A stretch of DNA of 64,000 bases, from positions 1 through 64,000 of the forward strand of contig CAKKQC010000019.1 in NCBI GenBank assembly GCA_919901855.1. The letters are read 5' to 3'. The position numbers and the translations under genes were made by a program. The notes beneath the pieces were generated by a model. The model ran no database searches. It saw only the letters and a list, made by a program, of their open reading frames with translations, and was not told the origin of the DNA. This DNA comes from a bacterium (lineage in GTDB: Bacteria; Oederibacteriota; CAKKQC01). Positions 15,543-42,961 of the stretch are shown piece by piece (positions within the stretch are counted from its first letter, which is position 1; each line of letters opens with the position of its first letter).

Positions 15543-18500
15543 TCAGGCCTTGATATCCAGCGACGAGGTCGTCGGCACGGGGCGCGTCGGGATCGGGGCC
15601 GCCGCCGCGGGGACCGGCAGGGGCTCGTCGAGCTCACACACGCACTGGTTCAACGTGAACTTGTACCCCGTCAGCTTGGCCACGAGATCGGGCATCTCCC
15701 CGGTGAGGAACTCGCGCACCCCGTCCTCGTAGACCCGGAAGATGAGCGAGAGCGCCTGGCCGAGCATCTGCATGTGCACGCCGACGGGACCCAGCGACCG
15801 CGTCTCCACTTCCATCGTCATCCGCGCCGGCACCCGGGGGTCGCGCTTCTTACCTTCCTTCTCGCGCTTCCACGACACGCGCACATCCCCGCCCTGGATC
15901 CCGCCCCCGATCGCGAGCGGAATCTGCACCTGGATGATGTTCATCTGGTCGCGCCCGCCAGAGGAGCCGATCTGCTGGGCGCTCACGACCTGCACGATTT
16001 CGGAGGCCGCCTCCCGCAGGGCGGAGAGGTGCGACCGCGCCTCGCCGGCTGGCAGTAACGACTGCGCCTCTCTCGCCCGCTGCTGCACCTCTATGGCCGT
16101 GGATTTCACCGTGTCCCGGACGGCCTCGGCCAGCTCCTGCCGCAACCGGACATCCGGCGCCCGCCTGTCCGGCGCGGCGGGGGCGGGCCGGTCCGGCGCC
16201 CCGGCGGGGTCCGACGCCCGGGCGAGCTTCACCTCGTGATCGAGCCCGAGGGATTCGATCGCATCCTTGAGCTGGGCGTGAAGCTCGCCTCCCTCGGGGC
16301 TCACCTGGATGCGCCGGGCCAGCGAGACCAGCCGCTCGATGGCGACCCGGAGGCCCTGGGAGATCGGGCGAGCGCCCGGGGTGGAGGCGTCGCGGAGCAC
16401 GGCAGTGGCGGCGGCCTGGAATTGCTCGAGGACCTGCGGCAGGCGCGGCGTCCCGTAAAGGTACTCGTAGGAGGCACCCGCGGACTCCGGCGTCGCCGGC
16501 AGGCCGCGGGCCTGCATGAACGTGGCCGTCTCGATCATGTCCACGCCGATCGAGGTTGGGATCACGGAGGAGGCAGCGATGGGAGCCGGCGTCTGGACCG
16601 GGATCGGCACCCGGACCGGGACCGGACGGACGGGCACGGGCGCCGGCGCCACGGCCGGAGCAGTCGAGTCGTCGGATGCGCCGGCCACGGGCGGCGGCAG
16701 CGGACGCGGAGCCACCGGAACCGCCGCGGGCGCCGCCTGTGCAGGCGCGGCGGGAAGCCGGACGGACTGCGGCGCGGGAGCGGTAACGGGCGTCGCCTCG
16801 AGACGCGCGGCGAGCGCGGCGGTAAAGGTCCCGAGGGGCACCGGCTCGGGCATCGCCGCCGCCGCAGTGGCGACGGCGGGTTCTGTCCGGCCTTGGGCCT
16901 GAGGAGGCACCAGAGCCACCGCGGGCGCGGCAGAAACGGACGCGCGCGAGGCGGAGGCCGGAGCAGGCGCCGGCACGGCCGCGACGGTCGCCGCCGGCAC
17001 GGGAGTGGGCTGTCCCGGAGTCGCTGTAACCACGACCGGAGTGGCCGGAGGCGGAACGGGAGACGGTGGCGGCACCGGGGCCGGCTGTGCTTGAGGTTCG
17101 ACGGGCGCCTGCGCCACGGGCGCCGGGGCGGCCAGCCTGGCCGCGGCGGGCCCCGTCCCGGCCGTGGCGACAGCAGGTGACAACTGTGCGGTGGAAACGG
17201 CAGGTTCTGTCCAGCCCTGGGCTTGCGGCAGCACTCGAACTGCCGCCGGGATCGTCTCCCCCGCCAGCACACGCGCCGCGACGGCCGGCGTGACCGGCGG
17301 AGCCGCCGGAGCCTGCGGAGCGGTCGGCTGGATCGGAACCGCCGCAGCCCGGGTCTCGCCGATGAAGGCGCGAGCGGCCGAGGCGATCGCGTTCATCGTC
17401 CGGGACACGTCGGCTTGCGCCGAGGCTGGCGTGGCCGGGATCGCGGGTCGAGCGGGGGCCGCCGGGCCCGCCGACATGCCCAGGCCCCCCCCAGCCGCAC
17501 GCGTCGGAGACGGCTCCGTCCGCGGAGCCGCGAGGTCAGCCGGAGAGGCGGGGGCGGCAGGCGTGGCCCTCGTCGCCGCCACCGCGGGGGCTGCCGCCAC
17601 GGACGGCGCCGTTCCTTCCACCTGGCCGGCGGTCGCGCCGCGGGGCGGGACCGCGGGGGCCGGCGCCGCCGGTGCCACGGGAAGTGTCGGCGCGGACGCC
17701 GCCGCCGGCTGAACCGGTGCGGACACCTGGGCCGTCGCCGACACGCCTGCGGGCTCCGCCGGAACGGATGCGGCCGCCACGGGCGCGCGCGGCATCCCGG
17801 CGTCCGACGCGGCCAACGGCGCCGGAGTGGACACCGGCGGCCCGGACTCGACCGGCGGACGCGCGGAGGCCAGCGATGGATCCGCCGCCGCGCGGGCGGC
17901 GGCCTCGTGCACGACGCCCGCGAGCAGGCCGCCGAGCTCGGCGGCGGCAAGCACGAGTGTCGGGACGGCTGCGGGCGTCGCCGGCATCCCCAACCCGGGC
18001 ATCGGCGCCACCGGTACGGGCGCCGGCGCCGCGGGCGCGGACGGAACGGCGGCGCCCCGGGTCATCGCCGGAGCCCCGCCGCCAGGGATTCCGGCGTCCG
18101 CGGGGACCCCGGCGGCCACAACCGGGGCCGCGGCGGCCGCGCTCACCGAAGCGGTCTCGAGTCTGGTCAGTGCCGCCGCCACCTGGTCCGCGAGCCGGCC
18201 GGCGGCCTGAAGGGACTGGGCCGGCGTCTGCGCCGCCGCGAGCTGAGTCCGAGCGGCTGCCGCCACGGCGGCCAGGTCTCGTATCGCGCCCTGCACGGCC
18301 GCGGGCGCCGACGCCGGGACCTGCGCCGAGAGACGGGCCGCGGTCTCCGCGATCAGCGAGAGCGTTGCGCCGAGGGCCGGAGGCGGCGTCCCGGGCCCCG
18401 TCGCCGCGATCGCCGGCGATGAGGGCACGGCCGCTTCGGCCGCGGACACGTCCCAGGTCCCGGACGCGACCACGCGACCCACGACATACCCACTAGTCTG

Positions 18501-19208
18501 GGCGGCCGGGAATGGCGCCGGGGCGGCCTGAGGGCCCGCCGGCAGCGTGGGTGCGCCCGGAGCCCCGGCGCTCGCCGGAAGGGTCAACGACGCCACCGAC
18601 TGCCAGATGAGGGCGATCGGCGCCGCCGTGAGGCTGGACGGAGCGAACGGGGCGAGATTCGGAACCGCCGAGGTCCACGGGACCGAGACCGAGACGGGGG
18701 TGCCCGGCCCGAACGCTCCGGCGGAGGACGCCGGCGCCATCGCCTCCGAAGTCAGCAGGACCGGCAGGCGCACGGCGAGGTCCTTGACCGCCAGCGCCGA
18801 TTCCCGGGTGGCGGGAAGCCCATAGGCCTCGAGCAATTGCACGATTGCCGCATGGAAGCCGTCGCGCGGCAGGCCCAGCCGGTCCAGCGTCGCGTCGATG
18901 GCCATCTGGACCGGAACCGACATCGAAACGGCGGGAGCGGCCGGAGGCTGGAGGCGGAGGACGGGCGTACCGCTCAGGTCCGACACCGACACCGTGATGA
19001 TCTCGCCGCGCGTCAGGGCCACGTTGCGCAACTCCGCCGTCACGGCGATTCCGCGGAAGTTGACGACCGCGCGGCCGTCGCCGAGCACTTCGGTAACGCG
19101 GCCGCGGAGGGTCATGCCCGGCGAAAGCTGGGCCGTGAGCTCGGCGACGTTGCGGTCCGGCTGGAGGATGAGCTGGACCGGCAATCCCTGGGCGTTGAGG
19201 AGGCCCAC
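15543..19208 (-). CDS. Second FliK-like hook-length/export-switch protein
   Basis: 1221 aa from a GTG at 19208, with GGGAG 7 bases upstream and only two bases after the preceding stop. The first 130 residues form a small beta domain (LRGRVTEVLGDGRAVVNFRG; GEIITVSVSDLSGTPVLRL). Residues about 250-880 are a low-complexity Ala/Pro/Val linker containing two 48-bp palindromic repeat units. The last 250 residues are structured (NIIQVQIPLAIGGG; MTMEVETRSLGPVGVHMQML; YEDGVREFLTGEMPDLVAKL) and resemble the FliK C-terminal substrate-specificity-switch domain. In FliK this part touches FlhB when the hook is finished. Paired with flhX and distinct from the fliK at 40-43 kb. Soluble, probably exported or export-gate associated. 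Confidence 0.65.
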   Translation of the reverse strand: MGLLNAQGLPVQLILQPDRNVAELTAQLSPGMTLRGRVTEVLGDGRAVVNFRGIAVTAELRNVALTRGEIITVSVSDLSGTPVLRLQPPAAPAVSMSVPVQMAIDATLDRLGLPRDGFHAAIVQLLEAYGLPATRESALAVKDLAVRLPVLLTSEAMAPASSAGAFGPGTPVSVSVPWTSAVPNLAPFAPSSLTAAPIALIWQSVASLTLPASAGAPGAPTLPAGPQAAPAPFPAAQTSGYVVGRVVASGTWDVSAAEAAVPSSPAIAATGPGTPPPALGATLSLIAETAARLSAQVPASAPAAVQGAIRDLAAVAAAARTQLAAAQTPAQSLQAAGRLADQVAAALTRLETASVSAAAAAPVVAAGVPADAGIPGGGAPAMTRGAAVPSAPAAPAPVPVAPMPGLGMPATPAAVPTLVLAAAELGGLLAGVVHEAAARAAADPSLASARPPVESGPPVSTPAPLAASDAGMPRAPVAAASVPAEPAGVSATAQVSAPVQPAAASAPTLPVAPAAPAPAVPPRGATAGQVEGTAPSVAAAPAVAATRATPAAPASPADLAAPRTEPSPTRAAGGGLGMSAGPAAPARPAIPATPASAQADVSRTMNAIASAARAFIGETRAAAVPIQPTAPQAPAAPPVTPAVAARVLAGETIPAAVRVLPQAQGWTEPAVSTAQLSPAVATAGTGPAAARLAAPAPVAQAPVEPQAQPAPVPPPSPVPPPATPVVVTATPGQPTPVPAATVAAVPAPAPASASRASVSAAPAVALVPPQAQGRTEPAVATAAAAMPEPVPLGTFTAALAARLEATPVTAPAPQSVRLPAAPAQAAPAAVPVAPRPLPPPVAGASDDSTAPAVAPAPVPVRPVPVRVPIPVQTPAPIAASSVIPTSIGVDMIETATFMQARGLPATPESAGASYEYLYGTPRLPQVLEQFQAAATAVLRDASTPGARPISQGLRVAIERLVSLARRIQVSPEGGELHAQLKDAIESLGLDHEVKLARASDPAGAPDRPAPAAPDRRAPDVRLRQELAEAVRDTVKSTAIEVQQRAREAQSLLPAGEARSHLSALREAASEIVQVVSAQQIGSSGGRDQMNIIQVQIPLAIGGGIQGGDVRVSWKREKEGKKRDPRVPARMTMEVETRSLGPVGVHMQMLGQALSLIFRVYEDGVREFLTGEMPDLVAKLTGYKFTLNQCVCELDEPLPVPAAAAPIPTRPVPTTSSLDIKA
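16874..16921. repeat. 48-bp FliK palindromic unit, degenerate copy
   Basis: Left arm CGGCGGGTTC is clear; the right arm is decayed (CCACCG). Read on the minus strand as AVALVPPQAQGRTEPAV. Confidence 0.6.
17198..17245. repeat. 48-bp FliK palindromic unit
   Basis: Begins CGGCAGGTTC and ends GAACTGCCG, arms that are reverse complements apart from one extra G. Read on the minus strand as AAVRVLPQAQGWTEPAV. Confidence 0.8.
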
Positions 19209-19210
19209 CG

Positions 19211-19774
19211 TCAGACTCCCGGGCCTTTGGTGCGGACCAGGAGCTCCACCTCGCCGCGGGGCAGTCTGGTGTGACGGACGATCTCGCCCACGTCCCATCC
19301 CTTGCGGGCGAAGTCGAGCGCCTGCCGGTACTTCTCCCGCCGCTCGTCGTCGTCCATCTCCCCGGACTCGTCCGCCGGGGGCGGCGGCGCCGGCTGCGGC
19401 CCCGGCCGCGAGCCACCGGGCCGGACGGCCCGGTGGCTGGCGTCGTCCGCCGGAATCCGGACAGCCGCCGGGCCGCCGGCATCCAGCGGGGCGGCCTTGA
19501 GCATGGCCGCCTCGAGCTGCTGGAGCCGGATGTCCGCCGACGCCACGGCCTGCGCGACCTCCGCGTGGCGGGATTCGAGCTGGCGGTCCATCTCCGCCGC
19601 GCCCTCCTTCATCTCCCGGATCAGGGCGCTCAGCGTCGAGATCATCTCCCGGTAGGTCTCCTGGTCCGCCGACGCCCCCGTCCCGCGCCGCCAGGATCGT
19701 CCCACGAGGAGGAGGAGGATCAGGAAGCAGAACGCGACGTCGACCAGCAGTTGGAAGTAGCCGAAGGCTCCCAT
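19211..19774 (-). CDS. Membrane-anchored coiled-coil protein of flagellar loci (DUF2802/DUF6115-like)
   Basis: 187 aa. One membrane helix (about residues 7-24), a charged coiled coil (about 40-95: ISTLSALIREMKEGAAEMDR, then EVAQAVASADIRLQQLEAA), a Pro-rich linker, and a C-terminal helix-turn-helix-like motif (KYRQALDFARKGWDVGEIVR, then LPRGEVELLV). That last motif is the signature of small proteins found beside fapA/flhG in many flagellar operons; their role is unknown. Shares one base with the preceding stop (TGATG). The 4-gene neighbourhood suggests a motor- or export-assembly accessory. Confidence 0.6.
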   Translation of the reverse strand: MGAFGYFQLLVDVAFCFLILLLLVGRSWRRGTGASADQETYREMISTLSALIREMKEGAAEMDRQLESRHAEVAQAVASADIRLQQLEAAMLKAAPLDAGGPAAVRIPADDASHRAVRPGGSRPGPQPAPPPPADESGEMDDDERREKYRQALDFARKGWDVGEIVRHTRLPRGEVELLVRTKGPGV

Positions 19775-20109
19775 CAGATCACGACGTCGATGCGGCCGCC
19801 CGCCGCCCCGGACGGGGCGGTCGGAGTTTCTCCGGACGTCGAAACTCCGGGGCCGGCCGCCGCGGTCCGCCTCTTCCGCGGCATCCGGCGCGCGCGCTTT
19901 TCCCCGTGTTCCTCCGGCTTGACCTCGGCGGACTGGGCGCCCTGCTGGGCCTCGGCCGCCTGCACCTGGTCGGGGCGCTCGGCCGCCCGCCGCTGGAGTT
20001 CGGCGGCGAAGGCGGCCTGGGCCGTCTGGGGGTTCGCGACGTTCTGCTGCCCGGACCGCTCGACGTTGGGCGTCTGGAGGATGGCCGGCTGAAGCTCGAC
20101 TGGTCTCAC
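19774..20109 (-). CDS. Small hydrophilic protein of flagellar loci
   Basis: 111 aa. The N-terminus (MRPVELQPAILQTPNVERSG) followed by a Gln/Ala-rich helix (QAAFAAELQRRAAERPDQVQ) has the layout of short uncharacterised proteins found in many flagellar operons. The C-terminal part is Lys/Arg- then Pro/Gly-rich and contains GVSTSGETPT, encoded by palindrome P2. No catalytic motif. Function unknown; lies 18 bases after fapA. Confidence 0.55.
   Translation of the reverse strand: MRPVELQPAILQTPNVERSGQQNVANPQTAQAAFAAELQRRAAERPDQVQAAEAQQGAQSAEVKPEEHGEKRARRMPRKRRTAAAGPGVSTSGETPTAPSGAAGGRIDVVI
19822..19849. repeat. In-gene palindrome P2 (28 bp)
   Basis: CGGAGTTTC and GAAACTCCG form perfect 9-base arms around TCCGGACGTC. 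Same length, arms and reading phase as P1 (3082-3109), in an unrelated gene. Confidence 0.8.
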
Positions 20110-20127
20110 GGCGCGACCGCCATCGGG

Positions 20128-21927
20128 TTATTTATAGGGCCCGACTTTGACGTCTGACCCCTTCTCGGTGAGGGTGCAGTAGCGCAGCTCCTCGACGACG
20201 TGCTTCTTCGCGTTCCGGATCGTGATCTTGACGCCGGGGTACATGGTGCCCGCCACCGAGATCTTGGCCTGGTGATGCTTCCGCTGCTCCTCGTCCTCGG
20301 CCACGATCTGCTGGAGCCGCTCCTGCAGGGGCTTGAGATCCGTGTTGATCTTGAGGGAGGCACGCGTGAACTTCGCCAGCATCTCGCTCTTGTCCGGCGC
20401 CAGCGTGCCCGTGCGCTCGCGCTGGGCCTTGAGGACGACCATACCCTTCTGCGCCTTGTCGAGCTCCTCCTCCATGGCCTTCACCCGCTCGGTCAGCCCG
20501 TTGATCTCCGCGCGGCGGGCCGGGTTCTCGCCGACGACCAGGACGGTCGGCGTCGCCATCGTGTTCGACCCGATCGTGCTCGCGATGATGTCCACCTCGG
20601 CGAAGATCTCGCCGCCCACGATCTGGCCGCGCTTGCCCGTGAGCTTGACGGACTTGGCCGACACCTTGCTGTGCAGGATGCCCTCGTGCGCGGTCAGAGT
20701 CCCCTTGCTCTCGATCGCGGCGTTACGGATGTACTTCGCGGTCACGTCCCCGCCGGCCACGATCTTGGCCTTGCCGCCCTGCCCGAGCACGCCACCCTTG
20801 ACCGTGACCTTTCCGGCAGCGTGGATCTCGGCGTCGTCCACGACGCCTTCGACGATCACGTCCTCGCCCGCCATGATCTTGAACCCGGGCTGGACATTGT
20901 TCTTGACGATGACGGTCCCGATGAAATCGATCGAACCCGTCGAGAGGTCCACGTCGCCCTCGATCTCGTAGAGCGCCTGGACCGTGAGCTTGCCGTCCGC
21001 GAACTTGGGCTGGCCGTCGATCGCGGCCACGAAGATGTTGTCGTTCCCCAGGGCCCGCTCGACCCCGCCGCCGATCTCGACCGCGGCGTCGGTACCGTCC
21101 CGGGCCGGGATCTCCTCGCCGCGGACGGACTTCCCCGACGTGCCCTGCGTGGGCGGGATGCGCCGGGCGATCGCCTGCCCGCGCTTGGTGTTCTCGATGT
21201 CCTTGACCGCGAAATAGTCGACACGGCCATCGGCGGACTCCCCCATGGGTTTGCGAACCCCGCCCTCGGTCATCTGCTCGAAGAGCGGCTCGAACTGGGC
21301 GTCCTGCCCGTGGACCGGGTCGACGCCGTGGGCGATCTCCATCTCGACGGGCTCCGTCCAGTCGCCGTCCCGGATGCGGTCGCAGATGTCCTGGACCTCC
21401 GCCATCCGGTCCTCGAGGATGCCGAACGAGACGCTCTGCGTGGTCAGCGCCTTCTGGACGTCGTCCATCGTGATCTCGATCCGCCGGTCCTCCGGCGGCA
21501 CGAGCGTGAGCTTGGCCGAGGTCTGGTCCTCGGACACGGTCACGAACACGTACGTGGACTTGTCCACTTCCTTGGGCATCGCGGCCTCGAGCGCGGCCTG
21601 CTCGGCGGCCCGGCGCGCCTCCTCTTCGGGGTCGACGCCGTTCAGAATCCAGGCGCCCTTGCCGGACTGCTCCTTCAGCGCCTTCCGGACCAAGTCCCAA
21701 TTCACGTTCTCGAGGTTCTTGGCGCGCAGCTCGCGTTCGACCTTCTCGGAATCCTCCGGTTTGCCGTCACCCGCCGGCGGCTGGACCACAAGCCAGTCCC
21801 CGCGCTTGTCGCGATAATGGTACGCGAAGCCGTCAAGGTTCCGAACCGGTCCCGCCTGGACCTGTTCCTCGCCTTCCTGGACTTCGGCTTGCGCGTCGGC
21901 TTCGGTTTCGGTATCGATGGGCGCCAT
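20128..21927 (-). CDS. fapA: FapA-family flagellar assembly protein (DUF342)
   Basis: 599 aa. After an N-terminal region of about 200 residues comes the DUF342 core (ARRIPPTQGTSGKSVRGEEI; then glycine-rich right-handed beta-helix repeats such as FIGTVIVKNNVQPGFKIMAG, KVTVKGGVLGQGGKAKI, TLTAHEGILHSKVSAKSVKL, GQIVGGEIFAEVDIIAS). A coiled coil (about 480-560) and a short end domain follow. FapA proteins are polymer-like cytoplasmic factors linked to polar flagellar placement or number, often next to flhF/flhG as here. One-base overlap (TGATG) with the upstream membrane gene. Confidence 0.88.
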   Translation of the reverse strand: MAPIDTETEADAQAEVQEGEEQVQAGPVRNLDGFAYHYRDKRGDWLVVQPPAGDGKPEDSEKVERELRAKNLENVNWDLVRKALKEQSGKGAWILNGVDPEEEARRAAEQAALEAAMPKEVDKSTYVFVTVSEDQTSAKLTLVPPEDRRIEITMDDVQKALTTQSVSFGILEDRMAEVQDICDRIRDGDWTEPVEMEIAHGVDPVHGQDAQFEPLFEQMTEGGVRKPMGESADGRVDYFAVKDIENTKRGQAIARRIPPTQGTSGKSVRGEEIPARDGTDAAVEIGGGVERALGNDNIFVAAIDGQPKFADGKLTVQALYEIEGDVDLSTGSIDFIGTVIVKNNVQPGFKIMAGEDVIVEGVVDDAEIHAAGKVTVKGGVLGQGGKAKIVAGGDVTAKYIRNAAIESKGTLTAHEGILHSKVSAKSVKLTGKRGQIVGGEIFAEVDIIASTIGSNTMATPTVLVVGENPARRAEINGLTERVKAMEEELDKAQKGMVVLKAQRERTGTLAPDKSEMLAKFTRASLKINTDLKPLQERLQQIVAEDEEQRKHHQAKISVAGTMYPGVKITIRNAKKHVVEELRYCTLTEKGSDVKVGPYK

Positions 21928-22532
21928 CAGGTCTTTCCCCCCGTCCCGGGCAATCCCTCACCTACATTGTTGCTCGCACCCGGGATTTCCTCAAGGCCGA
22001 TGCCCGCTTTCAGGAAGGCCTCGTCGATCCCCTCCCGCTCCTTCAGTATCTCTTCCGGGGTCAGCTCCGCCAGCGCATACTGCATGTCCGGCTGGTCCAG
22101 CCGAACCGTCTGGTGGAGATCCTGGGCCTTGACCACGTCGTCCACGGTGAGCGTGGACGTGTCATGGGGCGAGGTGGCGGCCCCGGAGGGAGGCATCCCC
22201 GGGATGCCGGCCGGCAACCCTTCCGGTGCCTTGGCCGCCGGGGGCCGCGCCCCCAGCGCCGCAGCAAGCGAAGCTCCGATGTCGGGCGGCGGCAGCGGCT
22301 CGGCGGGTTCCCCCACCATCGCCGACACGCGTGGGGAGGGACGCACGACCGGGCGCGAGAGCAGCGCGACGGAGCCCGCCAAGCCCACGCCGAGGCCCAC
22401 GGCGAGCCCCGAGAGAAGGGCGGCCAGCAGGGCGCGGCCCGGCTCGGCGAAGGCGAGCAGGAGCAGAACGGTCAGCACGAAGGCGCCGATCCCGGCGACC
22501 GCGCTCGCGCGTTTGACGTCGTCGCCGTTCAT
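21927..22532 (-). CDS. Membrane protein of unknown function between flhG and fapA
   Basis: 201 aa. Two membrane helices (about residues 10-30 and 33-58), a long Pro/Ala/Gly linker, then an acidic C-terminal helical stretch (TLTVDDVVKAQDLHQTV; LAELTPEEILKEREGIDEA) that could bind a soluble partner. It starts directly after flhG and shares one base with fapA. In many flagellar loci this slot holds the sigma factor FliA; no sigma-factor motif is present here. Function unknown. Confidence 0.55.
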   Translation of the reverse strand: MNGDDVKRASAVAGIGAFVLTVLLLLAFAEPGRALLAALLSGLAVGLGVGLAGSVALLSRPVVRPSPRVSAMVGEPAEPLPPPDIGASLAAALGARPPAAKAPEGLPAGIPGMPPSGAATSPHDTSTLTVDDVVKAQDLHQTVRLDQPDMQYALAELTPEEILKEREGIDEAFLKAGIGLEEIPGASNNVGEGLPGTGGKT

Positions 22533-23423
22533 CTAAGGTTTCAGGAGGTCCACGACCCGGGAGAAGAATCCCCGCAGGTCGGACCGGGGGGCGGTCAACC
22601 GGCCGTTCGTGAGGTGCGCCGCCAACGAGTGGATGCACCGCGCCGCGGGAGACGCCGGGTAGAGGATGAGGAGCGGCGTCTGCTCGCGAACGGCCTCGCC
22701 GACGCGGTCGTCCCGGAGGACGTACCCGAGCGGCGTGATGGCGGCCCCGAGCAGGCGATGAACCAGCACCGTGAGCTTGTCGGCCACGTCGCGCGCCTCC
22801 GTTTCGTTCAGGACCATGTTGAGGACCAGGTTCACCCGGGCCCGCGGGTTCTCCTGGAAGATCACCTTGATCATACTGTACGCGTCGACGAAGGCGGTCG
22901 GCTCGGGCGTCGTCACCACCAGGACCTCGTCGGCCGCCAGCACGAACCCGAGGACGTTGCGGCCCAGCCCCGCCGACGTGTCGATGAGCAGGAAGTCGTA
23001 GTCGGCCTTGAGAGACGCCAGGGACTCCAGCAGGCGGGCCCGAGCGGAGTCGGACAGGTTGGCGAGCTCGCGCACGCCGGACCCGCTGGCGATGATCGAG
23101 ACGCCGAGGGGCCCGGTCGTGATGATCTCCTCGAGCTCCATCTCGCCCCTAAGGACGTGCGAGAGGTTGTACCGGGGCAGCATCCCCATCGCGACGTCGA
23201 CATTCGCGAGCCCCAGGTCCGCGTCGAGGATGAGGACCCGCTGCTTGCGCTGGGCGAGGGCGAGCGCCAGGTTGGTGGTGACGTTAGTCTTGCCCACCCC
23301 GCCCTTGCCCGACGTGACGGCGATGACCCGCGTCGGAACGAGCGTCCGTGTGATGCGGGCTGTCGAGCGCCCCGAGCGGAGCTCGGAGACGAGCTTACGA
23401 AGCCGGGCGGCCTGGTCGTCCAT
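22533..23423 (-). CDS. flhG: FlhG, MinD-type ATPase controlling flagellar number
   Basis: 296 aa from the ATG at 23423, chosen because it gives the family's N-terminal DQAxxLR motif (DDQAARLRKL) that activates FlhF. A slightly longer start at 23435 adds four residues. Deviant Walker A SGKGGVGKTNVTTNLA, switch segment LILDADLGLANVD and LLIDTSAG are intact, so it should bind ATP, dimerise on the membrane and limit flagella with FlhF. Reading overlaps the end of flhF by about 29 bases. Confidence 0.93.
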   Translation of the reverse strand: MDDQAARLRKLVSELRSGRSTARITRTLVPTRVIAVTSGKGGVGKTNVTTNLALALAQRKQRVLILDADLGLANVDVAMGMLPRYNLSHVLRGEMELEEIITTGPLGVSIIASGSGVRELANLSDSARARLLESLASLKADYDFLLIDTSAGLGRNVLGFVLAADEVLVVTTPEPTAFVDAYSMIKVIFQENPRARVNLVLNMVLNETEARDVADKLTVLVHRLLGAAITPLGYVLRDDRVGEAVREQTPLLILYPASPAARCIHSLAAHLTNGRLTAPRSDLRGFFSRVVDLLKP

Positions 23424-33061: not shown

Positions 33062-33071
33062 GTTTCCTCCA

Positions 33072-33557: not shown

Positions 33558-33570
33558 GCCCGGTAGCCGG

Positions 33571-34086
33571 TCATTGGGCCGCGAAACTCGTGAAGATGAC
33601 TTCCTTCACCTGGCCGCGGTCCAGCAGTGCGTTGATCTTCACCCTCAGCTCTTCCTTGAGCTGTTCCTTCCCCTCCGGCGTGCTCACGTCCCGGAAGGTC
33701 TTCCCGGACATCTCGCTGATGACGAGGTCCTCGATGAAGGGCATGCGCGCCTTCGCCTCGGTGACGAAGTCGCCGAGCTCCTTCTCCTCGAGCCCCTCGG
33801 TGCTCAACTCCACCGTGATGGCGGCCTTGACGTAGTGGTTCATCTCGCCCAGGTTGTAGACCTGGTCCGTCAGCACCATCGCCGGCCCGGGCATCTTCCC
33901 CTTGTCCTCGACGGGCTTGGGGGCCCTGACGTTCAGCTTCGTCATCATCAGCATGACGCCGACCCCGATCGAGGCCAGCAGGAGAACGGCGCTGATGCTG
34001 TTGATCGTGATCAGCGAGGTCAGGACGCGCCGGGCTCGCTTCTCCTCGGGCGAGACCTGCTGGGCGGCGGCGACCGGCGGCGGCAC
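33571..34086 (-). CDS. FliL paralogue 1 (next to motB)
   Basis: 171 aa with a basic front (EEKRARRVLTSL), a membrane helix (about 25-47) and the FliL domain (VYNLGEMNHYVKAAITVELS; MPFIEDLVISEMSGKTFRDV; QLKEELRVKINALLDRGQV; VIFTSFAAQ). It lies 3 bases after motB. Confidence 0.88.
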   Translation of the reverse strand: MPPPVAAAQQVSPEEKRARRVLTSLITINSISAVLLLASIGVGVMLMMTKLNVRAPKPVEDKGKMPGPAMVLTDQVYNLGEMNHYVKAAITVELSTEGLEEKELGDFVTEAKARMPFIEDLVISEMSGKTFRDVSTPEGKEQLKEELRVKINALLDRGQVKEVIFTSFAAQ

Positions 34087-34089
34087 GGG

Positions 34090-34980: not shown

Positions 34981-34991
34981 GACGATTCAAC

Positions 34992-35828
34992 CTACTTCTT
35001 CGCCGCAGCGGCGGGAGCGGCAGGAGCCGCTTCCTTCTCGTCGCGTCCACCGCCGGCGATGGCCACCGCCCGCAGCTTGGGCGGCAGGAACGCCTTGAGC
35101 TTCTCTTCCACGATGCGCGGGTTGTCTCCCGCGGAGATCGAACAGACCCCCTCGATCATCATCTCGCGGAGGAGGATCTCCTCCTCGCTCCGGACCTTGA
35201 GCTTGCCCGCCAGGGGCAGCCAGACCAGGTTCGCCGTCCCGATGCCCAGCAGGGTCGCGCCGAACGCGGTCGAGATACCCTTGACCATCGCCGCCGGGTC
35301 GTCGAGCCCGCGGGCGAGCAGGTCGATGAGTCCCATGACGGTGCCGACGATGCCCAGCGTCGGAGAGTAGCCGCCCATCGCGGTGAAGATGTCGCCCCCC
35401 TGCTTGTGCCGCGACTGCAGGAAGCTGAGGTCCGTCTCCATGATGTGGCGGACCAGCTCGATGTCGGTTCCGTCGACCACGAGCTGCATGCCCTTCTGGA
35501 GGAACTTGTCCTCGAGCTGGTTGACGTCCTCTTCCAGGCCCAGCAGACCCTCGCGACGGGCCTTGCTCGCGAAGTTGACCAGCGTGCCGATCGTGCCCGT
35601 ATAGTCGACCTCGCCGCGGCTGAAGAACGCGTTGCGCATCACGCTGGTGAACCCGTTGATGAAGACCGGCATCGGGAACGAGAACATCGTGGCGCCGATC
35701 GTGCCGCCGAAGATGATGAACATGGCGTCCAGATGGAAGAACGCCCTGACGTCGCCGCCCACGAGCAGCACGGCGATGAGCAGGGATCCGAACGAGATGG
35801 CCAGACCGCCGATCGATGCGATATCCAT
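34992..35828 (-). CDS. motA: MotA, stator subunit
   Basis: 278 aa, four membrane helices. The cytoplasmic loop carries the charged FliG-contacting segment, and the helix-3/4 region reads GGYSPTLGIVGTVMGLIDLL and ISTAFGATLLGIGTANLVWL, hallmarks of MotA/PomA. Ala/Lys-rich C-terminus. Directly upstream of motB. Confidence 0.95.
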   Translation of the reverse strand: MDIASIGGLAISFGSLLIAVLLVGGDVRAFFHLDAMFIIFGGTIGATMFSFPMPVFINGFTSVMRNAFFSRGEVDYTGTIGTLVNFASKARREGLLGLEEDVNQLEDKFLQKGMQLVVDGTDIELVRHIMETDLSFLQSRHKQGGDIFTAMGGYSPTLGIVGTVMGLIDLLARGLDDPAAMVKGISTAFGATLLGIGTANLVWLPLAGKLKVRSEEEILLREMMIEGVCSISAGDNPRIVEEKLKAFLPPKLRAVAIAGGGRDEKEAAPAAPAAAAKK

Positions 35829-35855
35829 GTCTGCCTTACGTCCTCCCTCGAGTCG

Positions 35856-36065
35856 TCATGAGGCGTTCGCCGCCGTCTTGATCAGTGGTAGCGCGCGCCT
35901 CCGGTACTCCAGGGCGCGCCGGATGACCTCGTCCACTGACTCCCGAATCACGAGCTTCTTGCCGGTGGTCGTGGAGATGATCGTCTCCGGCGTGGCTTCC
36001 ACGAACTCGACGAGATCGGCATTCACCACCACTTCCCGATTGTCCAGCCGGGTCACCTTGATCAC
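35856..36065 (-). CDS. flbD: FlbD-type small flagellar protein
   Basis: 69 aa from a GTG at 36065, chosen because GGAG lies 8 bases upstream and the family starts at (M)IKVTRL; an in-frame ATG at 36104 would add 13 unlike residues. Conserved VIKVTRLDNREVVVNADLVE and TTGKKLVIRESVDEVI. FlbD/SwrD proteins sit before motA in many flagellar operons; in Bacillus SwrD raises motor power. This is not the Caulobacter regulator of the same name. Confidence 0.88.
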   Translation of the reverse strand: MIKVTRLDNREVVVNADLVEFVEATPETIISTTTGKKLVIRESVDEVIRRALEYRRRALPLIKTAANAS

Positions 36066-36171
36066 CGGAGTGTCTCCACATTCTACATTCAACCACAGCT
36101 TCATCTATTTCTCAACCCCTGTGCAATCCGTTGTCAGACCCTTGATAGAACCCCCGCCCCGGACAGACGGA

Positions 36172-36201
36172 GCCCGGGGCGCCGTATGAGGCGCCCCGGG
36201 C
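36172..36201 (-). terminator. Strong GC hairpin between flgE and flbD
   Basis: GCCCGGGGCGCC (36172-36183) pairs over 12 bases with GGCGCCCCGGGC (36190-36201) around a 6-base loop, 20 bases after the flgE stop. No T-run follows on the minus strand (TCCGTCTGTCC), so it may be a partial terminator, pause or mRNA-stabilising stem rather than a strict intrinsic terminator. Confidence 0.5.
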
Positions 36202-36220
36202 CCGTCATTGGTCACCCGCC

Positions 36221-38842
36221 TTAGCGAGCCAGGTTAACCAGCGTGTCCAGAATCCGGTCGGAGGTGGTCACGAGCCGCGCGTTCACCTCGAAGCCCCGCT
36301 GAGCCACGATCATGTTCGTGAGCTCCTCGGAAAGGTCCACGTTGCTCTGCTCCAGCACTCCGCTGATCACCGCGCCGCGGCCCTGCGACAGGGCTTCACC
36401 CTTGACGGCCGACCCCGAGTTCGAGGTCTCCGTCCAATGGGTGTCACCCGCCTTGGCCAGGCCGGCCGGGTTGGTGAAGTTCGCCACGGCGATCCGGGCC
36501 AGCTCCTGGTAAATGGTGCTGCCGTCCGTCGTATTGAACGTCCCGATCACCGTCCCGTCGGTCGTCACGCTGACGCCAGAGAGGGTTCCCTCCCCGTAGC
36601 CGTCCTGCGACTCCATACGGGCCGCGAACTTGGGGGTGTAGATCGTGTGCTCCGCATTCCAAGTACCCGTCGCGTCCTGGGTCAGCCCGTCGCGCAGTCC
36701 GTATGTAGTCCGGACCACCCGCGGATCCCAGGGCATCTCGAGGTCGGAGGCGCGGTCGCCGAAGGCGGCACCCGATCCACCCGGAACGGTGATATCCGTG
36801 CCGTCGAAGTTCGAGCCGTCGAGGTGCGCTCCGTCCATGACCCCGTCGCCCGTTCCGACAGGAGTCGAGTAGGCCGTAAGCGAAACCAGATGCGCCTCCT
36901 CGTACTCCGTGTTCGTCCCGGTCGCTGGCCCGTCGGGAGGCACGGGAGCGTTCAACTGGCCCTGCGTGGTCGGAAGTCCGCCGGTCGCCCAGTTAGCCGA
37001 AACCATGCTGGCGGCATCGTCGGCCCGGTCGAAGTCGGCCTGCGTGATCACGCTCACCGTCCCCCAATCGATATTGAAGGACTGCACGTACCACTGCTGG
37101 ACTGAGTTGATCGTGTTCCCGACCCCGCTCCCCGCCAGAAGCGTGGGTGACGCCTGGGTCGAAGACTGCATCCCGGCAACGTCCAGATTCACCAGCCGGC
37201 CCGGGGTGTCGAACGCCGGCGGAACCGGCGACCCCGCGGGAACGTTCTGGTACACGAGGACGATCGAGTTCTTGTTCAGCTCGAATGCGTCCCGGGCCGG
37301 CGTTGTCGCCGGCGCCACGGTACCAACCACGCCCGTTATTGAACCGCTGTCGCCGGTTCCCGCACCGGGGATCGCCCCGATATTCGGCTCGTTCATCCAG
37401 AGCATGACGGGCACGCCCGGGTTGTCGAACGGCACATTGTCAATGGCACCGTCCAGAAGCGGCAGCCCCGCCACGGTGTCGACGCTGTCCTGGCTGAACG
37501 GCGCGACCGACGCGGACGCATCCCCCCTGAAGTCTCCTGCCGCAACCGTCGCACCCTCGAACCCGATCGTCGTCGAGTTGTGCGGATCCAGGTCGGCGAT
37601 GTCCGCCCAGAGGTCGTTGTTGAACGCCGCGGTGTTGATCGGATTCTGCACCAGGAGCGGATCGTTCACCGTATCGTTCGGGCCCTCGGGCAGGTTCACG
37701 AACCCGGCGGTCGGCGGCATCATCGCCGTCGTCGGCAGGTCGTTCCCCCCCGGAATGTTCGGGTCGTTCGCGGCAAGCTGGTCGTACCGGGTGCCGAAGT
37801 GCTCGGCGTTCCGGTCCGCGTACGTAACCCAGTCCAGCGACCCGTTCGTGTTGAAGTGGATGAGCCCGCTGGAAGACGCCCGCACGAACGCCCCCGTGAT
37901 CGGGTCCGTGTAGGTCGAGTTGTCCAGCGCGAGGTGCACGGTCGTGTCGGCTTGGTCCGTGTCAACCGTCCACGCCCACGTGTTGTTGTCGTAGTTCTCG
38001 CCCAACGCCGCCTCCGGAATCTGGGTCCCGCTGAGGTTCGTCAGCGTCGCCGTCATCTGGTGCGCGTTGCCAAGCGAGTCGTACACGGTGAACGCCATCT
38101 GCGTCTGCCCCACCGTGTACTGGTGTGCTCCCTCTGTCGGAGCCGTCGGCACCGGCCCGGGGGGGTTGGGTGTCCCCGGCGTGTAGTCGTACGCCGTGAG
38201 CTGCGTGGTTCCGTCCACGCCGGCCGAGTTGATCAGGTTCGCCGCGTTCGCCCCCGCGTCCAGGTTGCCCACGAGGTTGACCTGCGTCGTCTCGTGCGCC
38301 TGAAGCGTGGACCCCGACGGGATCCTGATGTTCCCGATCTCGGTCGTCTTCGTGGAATCGACCTGGAGAATCCCGAGGGTATCGACCACTCCAATGGTCG
38401 AGGTCGGCAAGCTTGCCGACCACCCCTGGACGATGCCCCCGCTCGGATCGACGAGGTTCCCGTTGCCGTCGAACCGGAAGTTGCCCGCCCGTGTGTAGAG
38501 GGTGGACGTCCCGGTCTTCGTGATGAAGAACCCGTCTCCGTTGATTGCCATGTCCGTGGCGATCCCCGTCGTCTGCAGGGTTCCCTGAGTGAACCTTGTA
38601 TCGACTGATGCCACGGCCACTCCCGTGCCCGACTGGACGGGGTTCATACCCCCCACGTTCGTCGAGCCGTTGTAGCCGCTTGCGCCCGCAATCGTCTGGG
38701 AGAGCAAGTCCCTGAACATGACACGCCCGGACTTGAATCCGATCGTGTTCACGTTCGCAACGTTGTTGGAAATGACATCCAACATCGTCTGGTGGTTGCG
38801 CATCCCAGTGATCGCGGTGAACAGACTGCTCACCAGCGCCAT
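36221..38842 (-). CDS. flgE: FlgE, flagellar hook protein (very long)
   Basis: 873 aa, about twice the usual 400-450. N-terminal rod-hook signature SLFTAITGMRNHQTMLDVIS and NNVANVNTIGFK; C-terminal D0 helix NVDLSEELTNMIVAQRGFEV and LVTTSDRILDTLVNLAR. The extra length lies in the central surface-exposed D2/D3-type region, rich in Gly, Thr, Asn and Pro. Hook monomers polymerise outside the cell, with length set by FliK. A strong AAGGAGGT lies before the ATG. The last flagellar gene before the 36.17-kb hairpin. Confidence 0.93.
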   Translation of the reverse strand: MALVSSLFTAITGMRNHQTMLDVISNNVANVNTIGFKSGRVMFRDLLSQTIAGASGYNGSTNVGGMNPVQSGTGVAVASVDTRFTQGTLQTTGIATDMAINGDGFFITKTGTSTLYTRAGNFRFDGNGNLVDPSGGIVQGWSASLPTSTIGVVDTLGILQVDSTKTTEIGNIRIPSGSTLQAHETTQVNLVGNLDAGANAANLINSAGVDGTTQLTAYDYTPGTPNPPGPVPTAPTEGAHQYTVGQTQMAFTVYDSLGNAHQMTATLTNLSGTQIPEAALGENYDNNTWAWTVDTDQADTTVHLALDNSTYTDPITGAFVRASSSGLIHFNTNGSLDWVTYADRNAEHFGTRYDQLAANDPNIPGGNDLPTTAMMPPTAGFVNLPEGPNDTVNDPLLVQNPINTAAFNNDLWADIADLDPHNSTTIGFEGATVAAGDFRGDASASVAPFSQDSVDTVAGLPLLDGAIDNVPFDNPGVPVMLWMNEPNIGAIPGAGTGDSGSITGVVGTVAPATTPARDAFELNKNSIVLVYQNVPAGSPVPPAFDTPGRLVNLDVAGMQSSTQASPTLLAGSGVGNTINSVQQWYVQSFNIDWGTVSVITQADFDRADDAASMVSANWATGGLPTTQGQLNAPVPPDGPATGTNTEYEEAHLVSLTAYSTPVGTGDGVMDGAHLDGSNFDGTDITVPGGSGAAFGDRASDLEMPWDPRVVRTTYGLRDGLTQDATGTWNAEHTIYTPKFAARMESQDGYGEGTLSGVSVTTDGTVIGTFNTTDGSTIYQELARIAVANFTNPAGLAKAGDTHWTETSNSGSAVKGEALSQGRGAVISGVLEQSNVDLSEELTNMIVAQRGFEVNARLVTTSDRILDTLVNLAR

Positions 38843-38888
38843 GGTTGACCTCCTTGATTAGCTTCCGCCTGGTACCTGGCGAAAGGTT

Positions 38889-38919
38889 CAAGGCCCCCCC
38901 GAAACGGGGTCCGGCCTTG
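38889..38919 (-). promoter_or_regulatory. Hairpin in the flgE leader
   Basis: CAAGGCC (38889-38895) pairs with GGCCTTG (38913-38919), enclosing an inner CCCCG-AAA-CGGGG stem (38897-38909). It lies 47 bases before the flgE start in the 178-base gap 38843-39020. It could end the upstream transcript or tune flgE translation; no T-run is present. Confidence 0.4.
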
Positions 38920-39020
38920 TGAAACTCCCACGGCCTCACCGAGGAATGCCTGCCGGCAGCCGAACTTCACTTCCTGGCAGCGGTGACCCCAGTGCGATCC
39001 GTGTATACCTACAATACCGT

Positions 39021-39422
39021 TCATAGAATCACCGCACTGTCGATGTTGGTGAACACGTTTTCCTTCATGTGAGCCGGATCCACCACCGTGATGACCGTGC
39101 GGTTCCTGATACTGACTACGAACGCGGCCTTGTTGCTGAGCAACAGGGATTCCTGCGAGCCCTTGGCGGCCGCCCGGCGGACGCCGTCGTCGATCTGGGC
39201 CATGTCGCCCGGCGTCAGATTGATCGAACGCATCCGGAGACGGTCCTGCGCGTGTGCCGAGAACTTGACGCCCTCGGCCGTCGTCAGGAGCTGCTGCTGG
39301 AGGATCTCGGCGAACGACGGGGCGCCGGGGACCGCGGCCTGCGGCCGCGTCCCGCGAGCCACTCCCGGTTGCCCCGGTCCCTGGACCGGAGGCAGACCCG
39401 CCGGATTCAGTGGTTCAACCAT
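39021..39422 (-). CDS. Flagellar operon protein, TIGR02530 type
   Basis: 133 aa from the ATG at 39422, one base after the flgD stop. A Pro-rich front is followed by the conserved block VKFSAHAQDRLRMRSINLTP, GDMAQIDDGVRRAAAKGSQE, AFVVSIRNRTVITVVD and FTNIDSAVIL, which defines this family found between flgD and flgE in Firmicutes and other phyla. Its role is not established; its position suggests hook assembly. Confidence 0.85.
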   Translation of the reverse strand: MVEPLNPAGLPPVQGPGQPGVARGTRPQAAVPGAPSFAEILQQQLLTTAEGVKFSAHAQDRLRMRSINLTPGDMAQIDDGVRRAAAKGSQESLLLSNKAAFVVSIRNRTVITVVDPAHMKENVFTNIDSAVIL

Positions 39423-39423
39423 G

Positions 39424-39993
39424 TCAGATACTGACCTCCAGGATGTCCCACATGCCAATCTTGGAGCCGTCTTCCAGGGTCAAGACCGGGTTGGCGCCCG
39501 TCGAGACCGACGCGACCTGGTGCGACACGATAGTGCCATCGGCCGCCGCGAATCTGACGCGCCGCCCGAGCATCGAGATCGAGTCGATCGTGCTGTAAGT
39601 ATTCGCATCCGTAACCCGCTGAACGTCCTTTAGCGCGACAAGAGAGCCGTCCTCCAGCGTCAACACCGGATCCTGACCGGTCGAGACGCCCGTAACCCGC
39701 CCCGTGATCAGCGAGCCGTCGGTGGCGGTCGCGGACACGACCTTCCCCACCATCGAGATCGACTGCATGCCGGTAAACGCCTCCGACATCTGGAGCGACT
39801 GCTCGAGCTGCGAGAACTGGGCCATCTGCGCGATCATCTCCGTGTTGTCCATCGGGTTGAGGGGATCCTGGTACTTCATCTGCGCCACCAGCATCGCCAG
39901 GAAGTCGCTCTTCCCGAGTCTTCCGTTGGCTTCCGTCGTCACCTTCCCGGTCGACTGCGCGTACAGCCCGACCGGATCGACTGTCAATGACAT
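39424..39993 (-). CDS. flgD: FlgD, hook cap/scaffold protein
   Basis: 189 aa from the ATG at 39993, with AAGGAG 8-9 bases upstream. N-terminal FlgD motif LGKSDFLAMLVAQMKYQDPL and DNTEMIAQMAQFSQLEQ. The C-terminal part has two near-identical modules (VVSATATDGSLITGRVTGVS ... PVLTLEDGS and VRFAAADGTIVSHQVASVS ... PVLTLEDGS), so it looks like an internal duplication of a small beta unit rather than the usual FlgD Ig/tudor pair. Caps the growing hook. Confidence 0.92.
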   Translation of the reverse strand: MSLTVDPVGLYAQSTGKVTTEANGRLGKSDFLAMLVAQMKYQDPLNPMDNTEMIAQMAQFSQLEQSLQMSEAFTGMQSISMVGKVVSATATDGSLITGRVTGVSTGQDPVLTLEDGSLVALKDVQRVTDANTYSTIDSISMLGRRVRFAAADGTIVSHQVASVSTGANPVLTLEDGSKIGMWDILEVSI

Positions 39994-40009
39994 TGTCCCT
40001 GCTCCTTTC

Positions 40010-42961
40010 TCACGCCAGAAGGTCCACGGCCTGCCACCGCCGCCCGTAGGCGCCGACGGCCGCCAGGCCTTCCAGCCCGTCCGGCGTCCCGGCATTCCGC
40101 CGCGACGCCCGGTGCTCAAACCACCGCGGCCCCTGCCGCGACTGGCCCGAACTTCCGTTCCCCATGAATTGTCCGACCGGCGCCACGAGCACTTGCGGGT
40201 GATCCAGCATCGTCCCGCGTCCTTCGAGTGTCTGCGCCAGTTGCGGGAGGTCCTGTCTGAGCACCTGCGCCGCCCGCTCCGTCGGCGTCGTGAACTCAAT
40301 GGCCACGGCGCCGGTGTCGAGCAGCTTCAGGCGGACCCTCACCCGCCCCAGCTCTTCCGAGTTCAACCTTAGCTCGATTTCCCTGATTCCGCCGGGGGGG
40401 GTCCTCGGGATCTCCTCCGCCAGTTGGGTCAGGGCCGCCTGGAGCGCCGGATTACCCATGGCCGGGGAGGGGGTCCCCGGGGCCCCCGCCGGCCGGGAGG
40501 CCCCCCCGGCCATCGCAAGCCCCCCCTGGGCCCGGATCAGGCCGGCATCGGGGGTCTCGTCGTGCCGCCGGGCCTCCGGCGCGCCGCCGGGTACTTCCGT
40601 CCCCCCGGCAACGGCATTCCCGGCCACCGGGCCGGGTTGGACCACGGCCCCGGGGGTCCCGGGCGCCGCGGGCGTCGCCCCAATCTGGCCAGCCGAGGCT
40701 CCCGGGCCGGCCGGCAGGGCGTTCGGCCCGGCCGGCTGAATGGCGGAGTCCTGGTTCCCGGAGGGCGCCGGTACTGCCAGATCCGCCGCCGGGACGGCCA
40801 CCGCCGCGGCCACGGGGCCGGTTGCCACCGCAACGGCCGGGGCGGCCTCGGCGACTGCCGCAGGCGCCGGGATGCCGGCCTGGAGCGTGGGAACCCGTTC
40901 CGGGAGGACGGACGCCCCGCCAGCGGATGCCGGAGCGGCAGGAGTGCCCGGGATGACCGGAGAACCCACTGGACCCGGGACCGCAGGGGCGGTTTCCTGC
41001 GGGAGCCCGGCGTCCGTGGGGTAAATCCTTTCAACGACTGAACGAAGCCCGGTGTCGGAGAAAACGCTTGCGGGCACGACCGGAGCGCCGATCGCGGCCG
41101 CCGCCGGCTGGCCAGCCACCGTGTTCACCGGCACCGGAGCCGCGAACCCGGCCTCGATGAACCGCACAGGCTCGGCATGCCACTGGGGCAGAACGGACGC
41201 CATCGCGGTCGGGACGGCAGGTTCCGACCAGCCTTGAGGCGTCAACGGCACTTGAACTGCCGCAGGAACAGCCGCGGTGACGCCCTCGACCACCAACCCA
41301 TCCCCGGCCGGCGAGAAGGAGGCCGGAGCGGCGCCGGCCTGGATGGCAGCCCGGTCAACGGGTGTCGCCATAGCGGGCGTCAGGGCTCCCGGCATCACCG
41401 TCGCGGACATCGACAACGCGGGCACCGGCGTAGCAGACACCGACGGTGCAGCCATCGACATCTCTGGCACCCGCACCGCAGCCACGGGCGTTCCACTTGC
41501 CGCTCGCGCCGGGGGGGGGAATGCGGGCAGGTCCGGCAATACGGCGGTCATCCCGGCCGGCAAGGCCGGTACGGCCGAGATGGCAGGTTCCGAAGGGGTC
41601 GAGACGGAGGGTGCCGATCCGTTCGCGACGGCGGATTCCGTGGCAGTCGAATCGGCAGGCTCCGTCCGGCCCGGGGCCTGCGGCGGCGCGGGAACTGCCG
41701 CCGGAACCGCCGCCTGGAATGCCGCACGGGCAAACGCGACTGGGCCGGTCGGGGACGTTGCAGGCAAGTGCGCGGGATGGGTCGGGGGGGCGGCCGAAAT
41801 GGGCCCGGACACCTCCCGCCCCGGCCTCCCCTCGGCGCTCTCGGCAGGCGCGGAAACCTGCACCTGCCGAACACCGGGTTGCGCGGGCAGCGCGGCGGCC
41901 TCCGGCGATTCAGCCCCCATCACGGGGAGACCGGATCCGGCCGGAGCAGCGGCAAGCAGTGGCGCCTGAAGAACCGGCACGGGGGCAGTCTGTCCCGGTT
42001 CCGCCGGGACTGGTGCGATGGCCTGCTGAATGATCACCTGCGCCATCGCGACGAGCTCGGGAACCGGCATCGTCCGGACGCGCCGCACGAGGGCGTCGAA
42101 CCCGGACTCCCCCGTTGATGCGGTACCGCCGGATCGCGGAGTTGCGGCTTCCGCCTGAACACCCGGTGCAGTCGAAACGGCAGTTCCCGTCGCGACAGCG
42201 GTGGCGACGGCAGGTTCCGTCCAGCCCTGGGCCTGCGGCAGCGCGGGAACTGCCGCAGGTTCCGACCAGCCGTCGAGTGTCGGCGGCACTTGAACTGCCG
42301 CCGGAACGCCGGCATTCACCAAAGGCCCGGCAAGCGGAGCGCCTCCCATCATCGCCCGGAGCACTTCGCGCCGCAGTAGCGGCGTGGCCGGATTGGCCAT
42401 CAGCCCGCCCGCCGTCACGGCCGAGAGCGCCTCGCCAAGCCGGAACAGCGATCCGACCGGGCGGACACCGCGTACGGGTGCGGGGAGGGGGATGGCGTCG
42501 GGACGTGCCTTCCCGCTCGATGAACCGATCAGGTCCATCTCGGGCTGGCCGGGACGTTGCGCCCCATCCGCCAGCGGGGTTCCGGCCTGGCCGGACCCCG
42601 GGGGCGGCGCCGTGGGTGGCGCCGCCCCTGGCGCAATCCATGGCGGAGCCGTCGCCGGAACGGTCGGTGCGGTCGAGACGGCAGGTTCCGTCCAGCCCTG
42701 GGCCTGCGGCATCGCTTGAACTGCCGCCGGAACCTCGGGACCTCCCGATCGCGCGAGGAGGGATGCGAGCTGGCCGAGCACGGCCTGGGAGAACCCCGCC
42801 ATCCCGCCGTTTCCGTCCGCCGGCATACCCGTCGCCGCCGGGAACGCCGGGATCGCGGGCAGGGGCAGGGCCGAGACGAGCCGTTCCGCCGCGGCCGACT
42901 GGATCCCGAGGAGGGTCCCGAAGACCGGCGGCAACTGATTGCTCCCCGCGCCGGTGATCAT
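40010..42961 (-). CDS. fliK: FliK, hook-length control protein
   Basis: 983 aa. Most of the protein is an Ala/Pro/Val-rich unfolded ruler-like region carrying five 48-bp palindromic repeat units (peptide AAVQVxPQAQGWTEPAV and variants). The C-terminal domain (about 850-950: IREIELRLNSEELGRVRVRL; GAVAIEFTTPTERAAQVLRQ; LPQLAQTLEGRG) is the FliK switch domain, close to the usual LxPexLGxvxvxl pattern. It measures hook length and flips FlhB specificity. ATG shares one base with the fliJ stop. Confidence 0.88.
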   Translation of the reverse strand: MITGAGSNQLPPVFGTLLGIQSAAAERLVSALPLPAIPAFPAATGMPADGNGGMAGFSQAVLGQLASLLARSGGPEVPAAVQAMPQAQGWTEPAVSTAPTVPATAPPWIAPGAAPPTAPPPGSGQAGTPLADGAQRPGQPEMDLIGSSSGKARPDAIPLPAPVRGVRPVGSLFRLGEALSAVTAGGLMANPATPLLRREVLRAMMGGAPLAGPLVNAGVPAAVQVPPTLDGWSEPAAVPALPQAQGWTEPAVATAVATGTAVSTAPGVQAEAATPRSGGTASTGESGFDALVRRVRTMPVPELVAMAQVIIQQAIAPVPAEPGQTAPVPVLQAPLLAAAPAGSGLPVMGAESPEAAALPAQPGVRQVQVSAPAESAEGRPGREVSGPISAAPPTHPAHLPATSPTGPVAFARAAFQAAVPAAVPAPPQAPGRTEPADSTATESAVANGSAPSVSTPSEPAISAVPALPAGMTAVLPDLPAFPPPARAASGTPVAAVRVPEMSMAAPSVSATPVPALSMSATVMPGALTPAMATPVDRAAIQAGAAPASFSPAGDGLVVEGVTAAVPAAVQVPLTPQGWSEPAVPTAMASVLPQWHAEPVRFIEAGFAAPVPVNTVAGQPAAAAIGAPVVPASVFSDTGLRSVVERIYPTDAGLPQETAPAVPGPVGSPVIPGTPAAPASAGGASVLPERVPTLQAGIPAPAAVAEAAPAVAVATGPVAAAVAVPAADLAVPAPSGNQDSAIQPAGPNALPAGPGASAGQIGATPAAPGTPGAVVQPGPVAGNAVAGGTEVPGGAPEARRHDETPDAGLIRAQGGLAMAGGASRPAGAPGTPSPAMGNPALQAALTQLAEEIPRTPPGGIREIELRLNSEELGRVRVRLKLLDTGAVAIEFTTPTERAAQVLRQDLPQLAQTLEGRGTMLDHPQVLVAPVGQFMGNGSSGQSRQGPRWFEHRASRRNAGTPDGLEGLAAVGAYGRRWQAVDLLA
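41215..41262. repeat. 48-bp FliK palindromic unit
   Basis: CGGCAGGTTC to GAACTGCCG. Read on the minus strand as AAVQVPLTPQGWSEPAV; the middle has diverged while both arms are kept. Confidence 0.8.
41653..41700. repeat. 48-bp FliK palindromic unit
   Basis: CGGCAGGCTC to GAACTGCCG. Read as AAVPAPPQAPGRTEPAD. Confidence 0.75.
42208..42255. repeat. 48-bp FliK palindromic unit
   Basis: CGGCAGGTTC to GAACTGCCG. Read as AAVPALPQAQGWTEPAV. Tandem with the next unit, sharing 3 bases. Confidence 0.8.
42253..42300. repeat. 48-bp FliK palindromic unit
   Basis: CCGCAGGTTC to GAACTGCCG. Read as AAVQVPPTLDGWSEPAA. A lone half-arm (ACGGCAGTTC) also lies just beyond the preceding unit near 42177. Confidence 0.75.
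42679..42726. repeat. 48-bp FliK palindromic unit
   Basis: CGGCAGGTTC to GAACTGCCG. Read as AAVQAMPQAQGWTEPAV, nearly identical to the unit at 17198 in the other FliK-like gene. Confidence 0.8.

Follow-up and report, generated by a model that had tools for sequence, protein, structure and literature searches.

Palindromic repeats translated in frame within proteins have been described in Rickettsia, Wolbachia and Methanocaldococcus jannaschii (PMC10969869, PMC2229807, PMC2996958). The Rickettsia palindromic elements (RPE; Ogata 2000, 2002) are the best comparison for the repeat described here: they are spread over one genome and lie in frame in many unrelated, often conserved genes, at sites where they are tolerated (PMC10969869, PMC2229807, PMC3733652). 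RPEs are lineage-specific, and these sources identify no mobilising enzyme for them. The CGTC type of REP sequences also includes Rickettsia RPE-4 and RPE-6 (PMC3733652). Additionally, template switching is a known process by which the two arms of short inverted repeats within coding sequence are homogenised (PMC8604942).

The initial annotation of the 64-kb window, the whole stretch of DNA analysed here, described a 48-bp palindromic unit occurring seven times, only inside two fliK-type genes, in a shared reading frame, with kept arms, diverged middles and two copies in tandem. We recovered all seven units where they had been placed, with 37-45 of 48 positions agreeing with the seven-copy consensus, while the best non-unit place in the window on either strand agrees at 29 of 48. 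All of them share one reading frame within two minus-strand genes (table below). Relative to the consensus, the arms show substitution rates of 0-0.20 and the middle rates of 0.20-0.25, and the units at 42208 and 42253 are indeed in tandem, with a 3 bp overlap. In the alignment, the right end of unit 2 overlaps the left arm of unit 3, and in unit 7, at 16874, the left arm has been lost in part. The proposed length requires correction: the conserved block is nearer to 66 bp (columns -4 to 62), and the core arms are internal to it and not terminal. Similarly, the assignment of the hosts is clear by Pfam for the first gene but weaker for the second, whose Flg_hook score of 25.2 bits is below the Pfam curated cut-off of 29.8 bits. 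The region around both hosts is flagellar, with FapA, a ParA-type ATPase, a FlgE-type hook gene, a FliI-type ATPase, FliG and an SRP54-type GTPase, FlhF-like by context. It encodes two very long FliK-type proteins (1251 and 983 aa), and the gene for the longer one adjoins FapA.

Palindromic units and their host genes in the window (positions counted from the first letter of the window).
Feature	Position	Strand	Details
Unit 1 in fliK, 57-nt model block	42674..42730	-	Best model match, E 4.5e-16; encodes PAAVQAMPQAQGWTEPAVS
Unit 1 core arms	42721-42726; 42679-42684		CGGCAG (sense) at 42721-42726; CTGCCG at 42679-42684
Unit 2 in fliK, tandem with unit 3	42248..42304	-	E 1.4e-11 for 42255-42304; alignment
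Unit 3 in fliK, tandem with unit 2	42203..42259	-	E 2.9e-14
Unit 4 in fliK	41648..41704	-	E 9.4e-12
Unit 5 in fliK	41210..41266	-	E 4.2e-11
Unit 6 in FliK-like gene	17193..17249	-	E 5.7e-16
Unit 7 in FliK-like gene	16869..16925	-	E 2.1e-12; G-C state at variable core pair
Host gene 1, fliK, 983 aa, Ala/Pro-rich	40010..42961	-	C-terminal Flg_hook domain, Pfam PF02120 E 1.7e-12, above cut-off
Host gene 2, FliK-like, 1251 aa, Ala/Pro-rich	15543..19298	-	Pfam PF02120 E 1.5e-5, below cut-off

The restriction to two fliK-type genes holds within the window but not genome-wide. In a search of the rest of the genome, a 100-base query matched many places on other contigs, and a model (R1) based on sequence alone, for which 27 copies from the window units and genome-wide BLAST matches were used, retrieved 35 strong copies (E <= 5e-8), the next match reaching only E 0.002. 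Twenty-eight of these lie outside the window on many contigs, with E down to 8e-16, and rule out a fliK-specific repeat. Right arms fitting a strict pattern are confined to unit loci. The closest pair of copies is 89% identical and near-identical copies are absent, so there is no sign of recent movement. A single strong copy out of 35 falls between genes, and an ordinary intergenic REP is therefore unsupported and was rejected. Beyond this genome, 58 relatives, including one of the same family, gave at best partial weak matches (E about 0.01). An exact degenerate pattern, which fits 24 of 37 copies of the element, found four scattered chance-level matches in about 85,000 other genomes, with no Rickettsia genome among them, although more diverged relatives of the element could escape an exact pattern; in viral contigs the same pattern had no match.

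Placement within genes is far from random. Thirty-two of the 35 strong copies, spread over 23 genes, are in sense and in a single frame, against an expectation of one sixth (p 5e-22), and yield the peptide PAAVxVxPQAQGx-T/S-EPAVxTA. This frame is backed by the GC content per codon position around most copies, more weakly in the most Ala/Pro-rich stretches. The hosts are unrelated by Pfam, and include FliK, IF-2, T2SSF (GspF-type), TPR with Roadblock, FlgA, OmpA (two), M23, FecR, TamB, CsgG (two), QueT, DUF1573 and others. They are Ala/Pro-rich around the unit, which sits in Ala/Pro-rich linkers, directly after signal peptides or in C-terminal tails, its position within the gene differing widely between copies; some units are followed by extra TEPAV repeats. 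Three strong copies are atypical, one being located between genes and two read antisense, in frame, in other genes. Of the latter, one comes after the signal peptide in an outer-membrane protein judged LptD-like by inspection alone, while the other, at the start of a frame that is YidD-like, again by inspection only (L060:3034-3090), appears to encode all or part of the signal peptide.

Two loci deserve closer description. In a CsgG/LpoB-type protein (L051:2839-2895), a sense unit appears to form the signal peptide itself. The copy between genes (L072:2360-2440; genome C1:145359-145439), an antisense unit, comes after the gspF stop and takes up most of the space before a pseudopilin-like frame that runs on the gspF strand; the ATG of that frame appears to be located within the unit. 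The dispersed element may in this way have supplied the start codon of the pseudopilin-like frame.

What is conserved in these copies is the DNA and not the peptide. Codon 4 specifies V, A, D or S, yet its third base is T in 30 of the 32 sense copies, and codon 13, which specifies R, W or G, always ends in GG. Mid-unit differences from the consensus fall on codon positions 1, 2 and 3 at 25%, 24% and 20%, respectively, a similarity that gives no sign of purifying selection on the peptide. Most copies also have in common the rare codons GCA, CCT and GTT (usage 6%, 8% and 13%), whose recurrence points to common descent of the DNA.

The unit had been called palindromic. A palindrome is present, but in the strict sense it is limited to a core with a 6-bp stem and a 36-nt loop (CGGCRG-36 nt-CYGCCG). 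Core columns 5-10 and 47-52 are paired in 98.6% of cells, compared with 23-80% when the partner is slid by 1-3 columns. Self-complementarity exceeds chance over the 35 copies, with a mean folding z of -1.5 (RNA) and -1.8 (DNA) against -0.2 in same-gene flanks; single units do fold better than their shuffles, but weakly so (z -0.15 to -2.4). The only appreciably variable core pair joins columns 9 and 48, both silent third positions, 39 nt apart. Over 37 copies this pair is A-T in 21, G-C in 15, A-C in one and G-T in none (p = 2e-9); compared with shuffled data the coupling reaches a z of 24, and no third column is coupled to either of the two.

We considered several sources for this coupling. 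Descent of subfamilies was rejected on nearest-neighbour and tree tests: nearest neighbours agree in state in 20 of 35 cases (expected 16.9), opposite states are found in pairs that are 89% identical, and the tree of copies, itself poorly resolved, implies 10 changes of state against 10.6-10.8 with shuffled labels, although no more than two independent double changes are required by the branches with support. Local homogenisation among adjacent arms was similarly rejected, given that extra right arms beside units carry T in 15 of 16 cases, also next to G-C units; it is thus the inverted partner, and not the neighbourhood, that changes along. A stem longer than the 6-bp core found no support, since columns 11 and 12 do not covary with 45 and 44, nor did a pairing of the left arm with columns 19-25 into an internal hairpin, as columns 9 and 20 do not covary. 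At one locus (L066:2840-3092; genome C8:28936-29191) the right arm alone is repeated downstream of the unit at 24-27 nt spacing, forming a TEPAVATP-type array that is almost always CCT, although its unit is in the G-C state. We tentatively propose, as a reading that falls somewhat short of evenly balanced, that the hairpin core is kept paired in place by a process changing both arms together, with the encoded peptide drifting freely.

Orthologues provide some clues on how the units arrived. In the only genome of the same family (G001), the corresponding stretch is shorter in all four judgeable relatives, which are of TamB, LptD, FlgA and CsgG type. Such linkers vary in length anyway, so these are not clean empty sites; they would fit an insertion in the present lineage. 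Neither the G001 orthologues nor the surroundings of the Y1 genes yielded a precise empty site or a mobilising enzyme, and an unsystematic look for target duplications found none.

We regard the unit as, quite probably, a dispersed palindromic DNA element living inside genes, of the protein-coding palindromic repeat kind. Of the two origins offered in the initial annotation, a small self-complementary element spreading within disordered coding regions is the one supported. Whole units would have been repeatedly inserted or copied into sites where about 20 extra residues are harmless, such as Ala/Pro linkers, the stretch after signal peptides and C-terminal tails. Through purifying selection, nearly all surviving copies would then be in the frame that reads as a bland linker, a scenario that is well supported up to this point; microhomology with Ala/Pro codons already in place perhaps contributed. 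The core hairpin might either be needed by the copying machinery or be continually restored in place via arm-to-arm templating. FliK is the hook-length ruler; each unit lengthens its disordered part by about 16-19 residues and could be expected to give a longer hook.

The other suggested origin, in which gene conversion or duplication was confined to the two FliK rulers, had in its favour the seven copies in two genes and the tandem pair. It is refuted by the 28 strong copies elsewhere: most copies reside in unrelated genes, and the nearest relatives of the fliK copies are often found outside fliK genes, which leaves it practically no credence. A selected short peptide motif, for instance an EPAV-type docking segment or linker shuffled among proteins that need it, would account for the single frame of 32 of the 35 copies, for the envelope or exported nature of several hosts and for the additional TEPAV repeats. 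Nevertheless, the hosts span cytoplasmic IF-2, outer-membrane and exported proteins, the two antisense copies give a different peptide, codon positions 1 and 2 are substituted no less than position 3, third bases are kept while residues change, and silent sites covary; we thus judge this scenario very improbable. It is also improbable, if less severely so, that the hairpin functions where it stands, in mRNA or DNA (e.g., in protein binding or transcript control), with selection in each host keeping the arms paired. The pairing retained in diverged copies and the shared direction of unit and host gene in 32 of 35 copies speak for such a role, whereas the hosts lack a common pathway, positions within the gene differ widely, and the G-T (G-U) pair that RNA would tolerate is not seen.

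Any single way of copying the element must be considered doubtful. One route compatible with the dispersed element is a REP- or MITE-type sequence whose single-stranded hairpin is recognised by a transposase acting in trans, either a Y1 (IS200/RAYT-like) enzyme or another one. Three Y1_Tnp genes are present in the genome, pairing of the core stem is maintained, and CGTC, the tag of CGTC REPs (PMC3733652), follows the right arm in 27 of 35 copies. However, neither units nor exact arms occur in the vicinity of the Y1 genes, intergenic copies are few, and CGTC REPs combine 8-9 bp stems with 4-5 nt loops (PMC3733652), against 6 bp and 36 nt here; we consider this route unlikely on balance. The Y1_Tnp proteins themselves (L077, L078 and L079, with an IS200/RAYT-type domain) have frames of 340-360 aa with long C-terminal parts. 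In an alternative scenario without a transposase, template switching at replication homogenises the arms, and the number of units grows by replication slippage and through microhomology of Ala/Pro codon tracts. A coupled switch without a G-T step, the known action of this process on short coding inverted repeats (PMC8604942), the tandem units and local extra right arms, and the Ala/Pro-rich surroundings would all be in line with it. Against this, the outer arm columns 11 and 12 versus 45 and 44 are not homogenised, a 36-nt spacer is long for the process (PMC8604942), and copies occur on many contigs and not merely close together, so that template switching too is a rather doubtful candidate.

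A family of coding palindromes in a GC-rich flagellated bacterium suggests that the phenomenon is wider than Rickettsia, Wolbachia and one archaeon. Its many diverged copies allow one to ask what is tolerated, which reading frame wins, and whether selection or arm-to-arm copying is at work. Dispersed DNA of this sort would offer a route for linkers, rulers and even signal peptides to gain length. If the arms are truly kept paired in place, silent coding sites would be governed genome-wide by a repeated DNA or RNA structure.

Among known systems, the palindromic amphipathic repeat coding elements (PARCEL; PMC2996958) are likewise dyad-symmetric coding repeats shuffled within genomes. They are, however, amphipathic repeats of 25 residues arranged in tandem, lie in ORFs without a known function and have become widespread through horizontal transfer (PMC2996958), whereas the present units of about 19-22 residues are Ala/Pro-rich, mostly single, and found in known unrelated genes of one genome, and we do not assign them to PARCEL. 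GTAG and CGTC REPs (PMC3733652) are also small palindromes, some of them inside genes, and most of our copies have CGTC after the core arm. Nonetheless, REPs are mainly intergenic while the unit is nearly all coding; the stem and loop set it outside the CGTC type despite that tag, and the Y1_Tnp genes, without flanking units or exact arms, do not match a GTAG REP with its RAYT. The inverted repeats subject to template switching (PMC8604942) resemble the unit in that the mechanism would change both arms together, but have shorter spacers, and in the unit the outer arm bases have escaped homogenisation. The palindromes of Wolbachia (WPE) and Methanocaldococcus jannaschii (PMC2996958) are similarly in-frame repeats in unrelated proteins, here compared by description across different lineages. 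The closest likeness is with RPEs. Both are short palindromes found across one genome, in frame in unrelated genes, lineage-specific and with no mobilising enzyme identified. On our side this corresponds to related copies dispersed over many contigs, to 32 sense copies in 23 genes plus two antisense copies in frame, and to an above-chance palindrome, short as its stem is. The unit thus behaves like an RPE and can be counted among the same kind of element, a likeness of description and not a claim of sequence kinship. The RPEs described mostly span 100-150 bp, have long stems and in nearly half of cases lie inside ORFs, while the unit measures about 60 bp, has a 6-bp core with its 36-nt loop, and lies within genes in 34 of 35 cases. 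What sets it apart from RPEs is that its core stem is very short, that it hardly occurs between genes and that its arms are documented to be coupled at silent sites.
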